DNA from: Sedimenticola hydrogenitrophicus
Lineage (GTDB): Bacteria; Pseudomonadota; Gammaproteobacteria; Chromatiales; Chromatiaceae
Reading direction: 5' to 3'
NCBI RefSeq assembly: GCF_029017505.1
Contig: NZ_JAQGEI010000009.1
Coordinates: 1 to 64,000 of the forward strand
Length of the DNA stretch: 64,000 nucleotides
Below the pieces are notes generated by a model that ran no database searches, was not told the origin of the DNA, and saw only the letters and a list, made by a program, of their open reading frames with translations. How positions within the stretch are numbered: position 1 is the first letter of the stretch; every line of letters starts with the position of its first letter. Made by a program: the position numbers and the translations under genes. Below, in pieces: positions 38,516 through 48,833 of this stretch.

Positions 38516-39421
38516 TCAGGCGGGAAACACCGCGCGTGCGTCAAACACCGGCCCATCCACGCAGACCCGCTTCATGGCCGGGCCCCGGTCGGTCTGCACC
38601 TCCACCACGCAACCGGCGCAGCCACCCACCCCGCAGGCCATGAACTCCTCCAGCGACACCTGGCAGGGCAGGCCAAACTCGTCGGCCAGCCGCGCCACGC
38701 TCTCCAGCATCGGATGGGGTCCGCAGGAGAAGATCTCCACCTGGGCCAGCGCCTCTGGCGGCAGTGTCCGCAACCAGTGCCGTGCCAGGTCGGTGACATA
38801 GCCTTCGTGGCAGCCGGGGAAGCCCTGCTGGCTGGCCAGCCGGCTGGGGATGTGCCAGTCATCCAGCAGCGGCATGCTGGCGATCACCCCGTCCGGCATC
38901 TCCGGCATGAGCAGGCTGGAGGGCTGGGGCTGGAAGGGAAAGGGCACCTCGGAGCCGAGGATCACCAGCGGCCGGAAGTCGGCATTGCCCGCCAGCGTCT
39001 GGGCGATGAAGACCATCGGCGGCATACCCACGCCGCCACCGATCAGCAGCGGCCGCGAGCGCTCCGCATGGAGCCGGAAGGGCACGCCGATCGGCCCCAG
39101 GAGACTGATCCGCTCGCCCGGCTGGCGCCGGGCCAGCAGGCGGGTACCGTCGCCCACCGCCTTGTAGAGGAGTTCGATCCAACCCTGTTCGGCCGAGGCG
39201 CGCATGATGGAGATGGGGCGGCGCAGCGGCTTGGATGTGTCGCACTGAATATGCGCGAAACTGCCAGGCAGTGCCCGCTCGGCGCAGCGCGGCGCCTGCA
39301 GGCGCAGGATGTACTGGTCACCCGCGAAGGCCTGGTGGGAGAGGATCTCCGCCTCCTCCAGGAAAATGGTTTCGCGATGGCTTCTACGCGCTGTTGTATG
39401 TTGGGTTGTATGCTGGGTCAT
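38516..39421 (-). CDS. PyrK-like dihydroorotate dehydrogenase electron-transfer subunit
   Basis: A 301-residue FAD and [2Fe-2S] oxidoreductase. The FAD domain has RPISIMRA, the NAD-binding part has LLIGGGVGMPPMVFIA and CGPHPML. The cluster motif is CGVGGCAGC with the fourth Cys in KRVCVDGP, as in PyrK. PyrK normally feeds electrons from PyrD to NAD+, but no pyrD lies here. It follows pyrC' across a MITE-like element whose end provides its Shine-Dalgarno (GGAG, 9 nt before ATG 39421). The N-terminus carries a small TQHTTQHTT duplication. Confidence 0.85.
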   Translation of the reverse strand: MTQHTTQHTTARRSHRETIFLEEAEILSHQAFAGDQYILRLQAPRCAERALPGSFAHIQCDTSKPLRRPISIMRASAEQGWIELLYKAVGDGTRLLARRQPGERISLLGPIGVPFRLHAERSRPLLIGGGVGMPPMVFIAQTLAGNADFRPLVILGSEVPFPFQPQPSSLLMPEMPDGVIASMPLLDDWHIPSRLASQQGFPGCHEGYVTDLARHWLRTLPPEALAQVEIFSCGPHPMLESVARLADEFGLPCQVSLEEFMACGVGGCAGCVVEVQTDRGPAMKRVCVDGPVFDARAVFPA

Positions 39422-39428
39422 AGGCTAG

Positions 39429-39692
39429 TGCTCCGGCAATGTGATAAATGCGAGTTCAGTGAGCTTGTCAGCGTTCATGGCAAGGCGCGCCTCGCCGGCA
39501 ATGGTCGGCTCCCTTGGCAAGAGGCGCAACGCAGTCCATGGGCGCTGACAAGCTCACCCTTCGGGCGTCCCTGTGGTGTCCCGCAGCCGCGTTGCAGCGC
39601 TTGACAAGGGAACCCGCCATTGCCTGCGCACTGCGCCTTGCTGCGCAACGCCACAGGGACGCTGAATCCGTAATTATCACATTGACGGAGCA
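39429..39692. mobile_element. 264-bp MITE-like element, copy R1
   Basis: Terminal inverted repeats of about 30 bp starting TGCTCCG(G/T)CAATGTGATAA, with inner paired blocks such as GCGTCCCTGTGG / CCACAGGGACGC. It carries no transposase. It is about 95% identical to R2 (48170-48431) in the opposite orientation. The right end holds the pyrC' stop and the left end the Shine-Dalgarno of the PyrK-like gene. Confidence 0.85.
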
Positions 39693-41002
39693 CTGGTTAC
39701 TGCCTGGGTTGAGCTGGCGGATTGGTAGACGATACGGCCCTCGAACAGGGTATGGGTCACCTGGCCCTGGAACTCCCAGCCGATGAACGGGGTGTTACGC
39801 CCTGCGCTGGGCAGCTCGTCGCGCTTGAGTTCCCAGTGTTTGTTGGGATCGAACAGACAGAGGTCCGCGCTGCTGCCGGGAGTGAGCCTGCCGTAGGGGA
39901 GGTCGAGGATATCCGCAGGTCCACAGGTGATGCGGGCGATCGCCTCGGACAGGCCGAGCACCCCCTCGTCCACCAGCTTGAGGGTCAACGGGAGCAGGGT
40001 CTGCAGCCCGGCCATGCCGGTGGCGGTGGAGGGAAAGGGCGCCTCCTTGGCGTCCGCTTTCAGCGGTTGATGATCCGAACAGATGGCACCGATCACCCCC
40101 TTGGCCACGGCCAGGCGCAGGGCGTCGCGGTCGGCGAGGCTGCGCAGCGGCGGATTCAGGTGGCAGTTGCTGTTGAACTCCTCGATATCCATCTCGGTCA
40201 GGTGCAACTGGTGGGCGGCCACGTTGGCGGAGACCTGGAGGCGCTGCTGCTGGGCCTGTTCGATCATGCGCGCGGCGGTGCCGCTGGAGAGCAGGTGGAA
40301 ATGGATGCGGCAGCCGGTGTGCTCGGCCAGGGCCAGATCCCGCGCCACCGCCACCGATTCGGCCGCTTCCGGGATGCCGGGCAGTCCCAGCCGGGCGCTC
40401 ACTGGCCCCTCGTGGGCGTAACCGTTGTTGCGCAGGTGGCGGTCCTCCGGACGCAGAATCGCGGTGATGCCGAAGGTGGCGGCATACTCCAGGGCGCGCC
40501 GCTCCACCAGGGTATTGGCCAGCGGCGCATAGGCGTTGCTCATGGCGACACAGCCGGCCCGCTTCAGCGCCACCATCTCGCTCAGGTGTTCACCGGCCAG
40601 TTGCTGGGTCATGGCGCCGATCGGCAGCACGCGGGCGCGGGCGGCGCGCTTGGCACGGCGCAGCAGCAGGGTGACCACCGCCGGGGTGTCGATGATCGGG
40701 TCGGTATCCGGCGGGCAGCAGAGGGTGGTGATGCCGGAGCGGGCGGCCACCGCGGTTTCGCTGGCGATGGTGGTGATATGTTCCTGGCCCGGTTCGCGCA
40801 TTCGCGCGCTCAGGTCCACCAGGCCGGGGCAGACGATGAGTCCGTCGGCATCGATGGTGTGCTGGGCGGTAAAGTCGTCCGGCCGTTCGCCGATGGCGAG
40901 GACCCGGCCGTTTTGGATATAGAGGTCGCGGATGGCGTCAATACCGTTGGCCGGGTCGATCAGCCGGCCGCCGAGGATCTGGATGCTGTTCATGCCGCTC
41001 AT
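39677..41002 (-). CDS. pyrC': Dihydroorotase-like protein PyrC' (probably inactive)
   Basis: A 441-residue amidohydrolase-fold protein. Active dihydroorotases carry metal ligands as D-x-H-x-H-L-R; here the segment reads [11 protein letters not shown], so both histidines are lost. This matches the non-catalytic PyrC'/PyrX of Pseudomonas, which holds the PyrB dodecamer together. It overlaps pyrB by 4 bp, in line with an equimolar complex. The final residues TSAPSM and the TGA stop are encoded by the terminal repeat of element R1. A working dihydroorotase must exist elsewhere. Confidence 0.9.
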
Positions 41003-48073: not shown

Positions 48074-48169
48074 ATAGGCCGCTGGTCAGAAGTGCCGGGG
48101 TTGAAAGTGGAACGGCAGGGACGTCACTGTATCCCCGCGCCAGGGGCTGTGCGAATCAGAGGAAGCTAG

Positions 48170-48431
48170 TGCTCCGTCAATGTGATAATTACGGATTCAG
48201 CGTCCCTGTGGCGTTTCGCGGCAAGGCGCAGTGCGCAGGCAATGGCGGTTCCCTTGTCAAGCACTGCAACGCGGCTGCGGGACGCCACAGGGACGCCCGA
48301 AGGGTGAGCTTGTCAGCGCCCATGGCGGCGTTGCGCCTCTTGCCAAGGGAGCCTACCATTGCCGGCGAGGCGCGCCTTGCCATGAACGCTGACATGCTCA
48401 CTGAACTCGCAATTATCACATTGACGGAGCA
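48170..48431. mobile_element. 262-bp MITE-like element, copy R2
   Basis: An inverted copy of R1 (39429-39692), about 95% identical with a dozen differences including small indels. The ends are TGCTCCGTCAATGTGATAAT and its complement. Its right end sits 6 bp before the pilG start and provides GGAG (48426-48429) as pilG Shine-Dalgarno. No transposase or obvious target duplication is seen. Confidence 0.85.
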
Positions 48432-48437
48432 CAAGTA

Positions 48438-48833
48438 ATGAATGAAGACGTCGATATCTCCGGTCGAAAGGTGATGGTCATCGATGATAGCAAGACCATC
48501 CGCCGCACGGCCGAGAGCCTGCTAAAAAAGGCCGGCTGCGAGGTGTTTACCGCCAACGACGGCTTCGAGGCGCTGTCGGTCATCGCCGACACCCACCCGG
48601 ACATCATCTTCGTGGATATCATGATGCCGCGTCTGGACGGTTATCAGACCTGCGCCCTGATCAAGCATAACAGTGAGTTCAAGAAGACCCCGGTCATCAT
48701 GCTCTCCTCCAAGGATGGCCTGTTCGATCGCGCCCGGGGACGTATTGTCGGTTCCGAAGAGTATCTCACCAAGCCGTTTACCAAGGATGAGCTGCTGGGC
48801 GCCATACGCAAGCACAGTGTCAAGGCCGCCTGA
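48438..48833 (+). CDS. pilG: Pilus response regulator PilG
   Basis: A 131-residue single-domain CheY-like receiver that promotes pilus extension when phosphorylated by ChpA. The acidic pocket is VIDDSKTIRRTAE, the phospho-Asp is in IIFVDIMMPRLDGY, and the lysine is in YLTKPFTKDEL. Its Shine-Dalgarno is formed by the end of element R2, 8 nt before ATG. Confidence 0.95.
   Translation: MNEDVDISGRKVMVIDDSKTIRRTAESLLKKAGCEVFTANDGFEALSVIADTHPDIIFVDIMMPRLDGYQTCALIKHNSEFKKTPVIMLSSKDGLFDRARGRIVGSEEYLTKPFTKDELLGAIRKHSVKAA

Follow-up and report, generated by a model that had tools for sequence, protein, structure and literature searches.

Introduction

Mobile repeats are commonly held to be tolerable through gene avoidance. 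The locus studied here raises the question of how a repeat can lie between two genes and hold the stop codon of the first in one end and a candidate Shine-Dalgarno (SD) sequence of the second in the other. The window, meaning the whole stretch of 64,000 nucleotides of Sedimenticola DNA that was analysed, had earlier been read from its letters alone. That sequence-only reading placed a MITE-like element, R1, between pyrC' and a PyrK-like gene. Translational-coupling hairpins at gene junctions offer a model for such an arrangement, in which the SD is hidden in a stem and is exposed by the ribosome reaching the upstream stop. To our knowledge, the known coupling hairpins are resident sequences, whereas the device proposed here would ride on a mobile-type repeat.

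R1 and its flanking genes

The gene order runs from an aspartate carbamoyltransferase-type gene upstream to pyrC', R1 and the PyrK-like gene. The features of the window are as follows.

39427..39694, minus strand: R1, a T1-type palindromic MITE-like element (AGTG...CACT) of 268 bp, from its inverted ends and whole-genome copies
39672..39694, minus strand: R1 terminal repeat on the pyrC' side, containing the final pyrC' codons; the empty SB48 site has a different pyrC' tail
39427..39449, minus strand: R1 terminal repeat toward the PyrK-like gene, from end-sequence matches
39431..39434, minus strand: GGAG, candidate Shine-Dalgarno, 9 nt 5' of the ATG, with a duplex score of -5.8 kcal/mol with the anti-SD
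38516..39421, minus strand: PyrK-like gene (DHODB iron-sulfur domain PF10418), downstream, from ORF and domain match
39677..41002, minus strand: pyrC'-type amidohydrolase gene (PF01979), upstream, with its stop codon within R1, from ORF and domain match
48168..48433, plus strand: second T1 copy, with GGAG 8 nt before the ATG at 48438, located in a leader rather than at a tight junction between genes

R1 is an imperfect, near-palindromic element with inverted ends AGTGCTCCGNCAATGTGATAA and the outermost letters AGTGCTCC...GGAGCACT. It lies where it was first placed, but its limits, given as 39429-39692, had to be moved outward to 39427-39694. The last pyrC' codons (AGT GCT CCG TCA ATG TGA), already described as the end of R1, can be read directly in the sequence, so that the pyrC' frame terminates inside the element. 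On the PyrK side the minus strand reads GGAG CACTAGCCT ATG. The spacing of 9 nt that had been given for GGAGCAC belongs to GGAG, and the longer motif stands 6 nt from the ATG. The 21-nt end has four matches in the window, against 0 expected from 100 shuffles, and these are both ends of R1 and of the second copy. No outward promoter was predicted in the window's R1 copy at the threshold of the prediction tool. Three weak Rfam matches to microRNA families, far under the cut-offs, were set aside.

Copies of T1 and their position relative to start codons

R1 represents an end type, T1, found at 12 loci in the window's genome (5.13 Mb, 116 contigs), of which seven are full and five are shortened, degenerate or one-ended; three end hits with 3 mismatches (C3:160610, C16:43993, C28:57671) were judged not to be T1 and excluded. 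In common with MITEs, T1 is short and non-coding, with terminal inverted repeats of about 21 nt, a dozen loci and presence or absence at orthologous sites within the genus. It is called MITE-like because no autonomous element sharing its ends was found in the genomes, viral contigs and plasmids searched. The full copies are 93.6-98.5% identical to each other, and deletion derivatives (33, 57, 128 and 161 bp) are common. One locus of this genome, L018 1499-1659 on C30, is a chimera in which T1 ends flank an interior like that of another repeat, F3, which suggests that the ends themselves are the mobile unit.

S. hydrogenitrophicus SB48, of the same genus, carries eight T1 loci, seven of them at the same places as in the window's genome; a variant end (GGAGTACT, SB48 C55:13081), lying away from a start, is left out of the eight. 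At one mismatch or fewer, the T1 end has no match in seven other genomes of the genus and is present in 8 of 194 genomes drawn from the family. A scan of species genomes yielded 39 stretches, and the named carriers of T1 ends include tubeworm endosymbionts, a Methylophaga and several gammaproteobacterial MAGs. Scan loci outside SB48 were judged singly and are counted solely in the orientation tally below.

The position of these copies is narrowly defined. At 11 of the 12 loci in the window's genome, an ATG that begins an ORF of 80 aa or more stands 3-5 nt beyond CACT, and the spacing from GGAG to ATG is 7-9 nt at 11 of 12; the twelfth locus, C8, has a TTG at 4 nt and an ATG at 16 nt. All eight SB48 loci have such an ATG at 3-5 nt. 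Under the same rule, only 2.9% of window positions (either side), 1.9% of T^A sites and 1 of 17 CT^AG sites qualify. The P value is at most 1e-13 under each null, and the binomial P is about 1e-16 at 1.9-2.9% per locus. The window null rules out a target dinucleotide preference as the sole cause of the start bias.

Two other palindromic repeats of the same genome served as controls. T2 is a sister type that terminates in ACAGAGTACT, has ends AGTACTCTGTCAAGGTGATATT without GGAG, and occupies 12 loci (one single end, C2:4113, is omitted). Identity among seven T2 copies of 264-307 bp is 89-98%, and one of 203 bp has diverged further. Just 2 of the 12 have an ATG at 3-5 nt, with one more at 7 nt (Fisher T1 vs T2, 6e-4). 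F3 (L246-L275) is a palindromic repeat of about 207 bp with ends GTAACTACTC, which we take to resemble those of IS66, and with about 40 listed places. Thirty loci were drawn from these and six lacking both ends were dropped; none of the remaining 24 has an ATG at 1-7 nt (Fisher T1 vs F3, 2e-8). A genome-wide comparison of end copies with start codons had been named beforehand as the check on the sequence-only reading, and the enrichment it called for is clear, with 11/12 for T1 against 0/24 and 2/12 in the controls. As a separate observation on T2 (L087-L109 in the window's genome, L229-L238 in SB48), the upstream frame closes in T2's own TGA at L087, L089 and L096.

The start bias could come from selection for the SD, from targeting of the insertion, or from both. 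The contrast between T1 and T2 implicates GGAG, and the loci without a close upstream stop implicate targeting. We lean towards a reading in which R1 is a non-autonomous, MITE-like T1 element whose ends would act as translation signals, with GGAG as a working SD and the reason that copies are kept, and with the whole element as a putative portable coupling hairpin.

Stop codons at the other end

The element starts with AG, so that a preceding T in the flank gives a TAG stop, and another frame gives a TGA at codon 6. Counted from the start of the element, an upstream stop falls between -9 and +15 nt at 7 of the 12 T1 loci. It is a TAG at offset -1, made of the flank T and the element AG, at C1, C3, C8, C13 and C30; it is a TGA at +15 at C9a, the pyrC' locus, and lies at -9 at C35. 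At C4, C9b and C37 the closest upstream stop is 81-149 nt off, at C29 an ORF ends at -107, and at C28 no ORF ends before the element. Palindromic ends that provide both a stop codon and an SD-like GGAG, as first described for R1, are a pattern of the family, far above chance in the window's genome. The pattern extends beyond operon junctions, as five loci of 12 have no nearby upstream stop codon.

Empty sites, insertion footprint and targeting

Counterparts of the joined flanks were found in same-genus genomes for ten T1 loci. At seven of them (C3, C4, C9a, C9b, C13, C30 and C35), taking out AGTG...CACT leaves a sequence as long as that of one or more empty relatives, in alignments judged by eye and, for C9b, on the assumption that the element ends at CAC. 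C1, C28 and C37 gave no clean alignment with empty relatives. SB48 is empty at the pyrC' locus, where it reads AGC CTA TGA overlapping the next ATG. Because this site reads otherwise, the pyrC' tail in the window is element-derived; conservation of the tail in relatives lacking R1, which would have spoken against such an origin, was not seen. C52 shows the reverse: SB48 has the element there and the window's genome does not, and the flanks are 98% and 95% identical. Here CTA TAG TC ATG has become CTA T[AG...CACT]AATC ATG, so that the TAG stop is regenerated exactly and GGAG stands 8 nt from the ATG. At C29, the SD half of the element alone remains, 3 nt before the ATG, and the leader lacks the element in SB48 and four other genomes.

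Flanks match over 0-1 nt at ten T1 loci, as against 8-bp direct repeats around 11 of the 24 F3 copies checked. A 2-bp TA duplication fits C1 and C52 but not most others, and a strict 4-bp CTAG duplication was rejected, as the left and right flanks are unlike. Neither a clean target duplication nor a transposase partner was found for T1.

These sites bear on a different explanation, in which the enzyme that mobilises T1 would prefer the bases before starts, or DNA like the element's own end (GGAGCACT^), and the supply of an SD would be a by-product that makes the insertion harmless. Of the two close species, the window's genome alone has the element at C9a, C29 and C30, and SB48 alone has it at C52. 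These four are probably recent insertions for that reason, and all are at starts, as targeting would predict. The flank preceding C3 reads GGAGCACT, and 5 of the 12 loci are in leaders with harmless room upstream, yet lie 3-5 nt from the start (TTG at 4 for C8). Orientation points the same way. Although both ends carry GGAG, the end turned towards the start is end A in 17 of 21 start-adjacent T1 cases (hand count; P 0.007), a tally that includes C8 and excludes other rows with only a TTG. Against this, the Sedimenticola sites share no consensus except a T before the insertion (14/18, hand tally), related elements elsewhere favour CT^AG, and T2, which probably uses the same chemistry, is start-adjacent in just 2/12. 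On balance we regard targeting by itself as rather unlikely.

The SD and predicted RNA folding

The T1 end scores -5.8 kcal/mol in the anti-SD duplex and the T2 end -2.4, with a median of -3.2 over 47 long window ORFs (first ATG, a crude choice). The empty sites score between -0.7 and -7.8, so that the SD gains strength from insertion at only some of the genes; at C1, C3 and C29 the native SD of the empty site scores equal to or stronger than the T1 end.

According to the sequence-only reading, the ends by themselves keep downstream translation possible. The folding results do not bear this out as stated, since the prediction for a read-through transcript is that GGAG pairs with CTCC at the opposite end. 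The pairing is with element nt 5-8 in ten of ten folded loci (4-7 at C37; three of four bases at C13). The predicted fold is very stable in transcripts with the seven full copies (-165 to -213 kcal/mol), and the probability that GGAG is unpaired is 0.000-0.001 in nine of ten loci and 0.25 at C13. The SD is thus probably masked in read-through mRNA and would function only once that stem is opened. When 14 nt of the left end and the preceding 15 nt are blocked, the unpaired probability of GGAG rises to 0.005-0.69, with poor release at C9b (0.07) and C37 (0.005). As in a coupling hairpin, and by prediction only, the SD is paired with sequence at or near the upstream stop.

From the sequence, we infer that the downstream gene may use GGAG at the outgoing end as its SD, which would be why T1 copies are kept there; with less confidence, and on the folding model, T1 may act as a portable translational-coupling hairpin. 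In read-through mRNA the two ends would pair and bury GGAG. A ribosome terminating at the upstream stop, which is at or in the other end at 7/12 loci, would then open the stem and expose the SD. The idea of coupling comes from this geometry, as a ribosome that terminates at a close upstream stop would sit on the arm predicted to mask the SD. Loci without such a stop would need another way of exposing the SD, and at C29 the loss of the opposite arm may be one. A wider statement can be offered tentatively, namely that T1 may be targeted to translation-initiation regions when it integrates, or persist almost nowhere else, because its ends would regenerate the stop that it interrupts and replace the SD that it displaces, making it a portable coupling switch between operons.

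The stable fold also suits the idea that the hairpin is mainly an mRNA stability or attenuation module, with nearness to starts being secondary. We consider this very improbable, since it explains neither the 3-5 nt rule nor the difference between T1, T2 and F3, the last two being palindromic too.

Retention of GGAG differs between the arms. In the two genomes it is intact in the start-facing arm at 13 of 13 loci and lost from the other arm at 4 of 13 (C8, C13, C29 and C52), with a one-sided P of 0.048 and a two-sided P of 0.096 (hand count). Together with the frequent deletion derivatives, this is what would be expected if T1 inserted at random and most copies were lost, those at starts remaining because their deletion would cost the SD. 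Such survivorship is improbable, in our judgement, as the full T1 copies have kept 93.6-98.5% identity and T2 copies that have diverged to a similar degree persist off starts. Mere tolerance leaves unexplained why T1 is absent from the ordinary intergenic sites that T2 and F3 occupy. The 33-bp remnant at C13 retains the stop, the stem and the SD; it is no proof of selection, because a 33-bp T2 remnant (L089) exists as well.

Related elements and the mobilising partner

Four other gammaproteobacterial genomes (G194-G197) hold related elements, with an ATG at 1-5 nt in 9 of 80 loci (expected 2.3; P 5e-4). The 80 regions come from 126 end hits, with an ORF limit of 70 aa; omitted loci are mainly at contig ends, and ends with more than 3 mismatches were dropped. 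Of 115 ends, 82 are directly followed by AG, and CT^AG is found at 16 of 35 two-ended loci. In these data, a target like CT^AG and a slight bias towards starts extend more widely, and the near-exclusive start position is a feature of Sedimenticola T1.

Paired T1 ends of an autonomous partner were found in none of the window's genome, the 194 family genomes, the species-genome scan, the viral contigs or the plasmids. Two IS630-type transposases were found in five genomes, neither with T1 ends in the available DNA. An IS630 origin for T1 found no support, as most loci lack an exact TA duplication, IS630-type ends are absent and only a TA-like target preference is shared.

Comparison with known systems

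T1 was compared with the accessible parts of PMC3049150, PMC6382973, PMC2170065, PMC2229807, PMC3189936, PMC10969869 and PMC9796809. Like the bacterial MITEs (MITEAba12, Chunjie, Correia, RUP), T1 is short and non-coding, with inverted ends and many copies; however, ends used as an SD or a near-exclusive position at start codons are not described in the passages on those elements. The open-licence literature searched, as far as its accessible text goes, holds no report of a MITE end serving as SD. ERIC sequences are described in the text available of PMC2229807 as imperfect palindromes in transcribed regions, with RNA-structure effects alterable by ribosomes. T1 shares the imperfect palindrome and the RNA-structure route, but the ERIC effect reported in that text is mRNA decay through an exposed RNase E site, and not the supply of a stop and an SD. 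IS630 prefers CTAG, according to a title cited in PMC2170065. The IS630/Tc1-mariner group has a TA-centred target, as do the T1 relatives with their 16/35 CT^AG loci, and C52 fits a TA duplication; in contrast, most Sedimenticola T1 copies have no matching TA pair, and the genome's one IS630-type transposase lacks T1 ends.

The pattern suggests a repeat able to enter the tightest part of an operon, its ends replacing the signals that it breaks. If confirmed, T1 would be an element whose termini have evolved into translation signals, and would offer operon junctions a way of gaining new control. The filled and empty junction pairs in close species form a natural set for tests of translational coupling.

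Other repeats

Two further sequences were seen alongside T1. Many places, among them C28:10309, C43:7918 and C45:6677, carry a motif of about 54 bp that corresponds to element nt 52-106 at about 82% identity and is possibly another repeat family. A further end type, GTRCTACTTCAATTTGATAA, occurs in both species, at C28:57671 in the window's genome and at C61:34850 in SB48.
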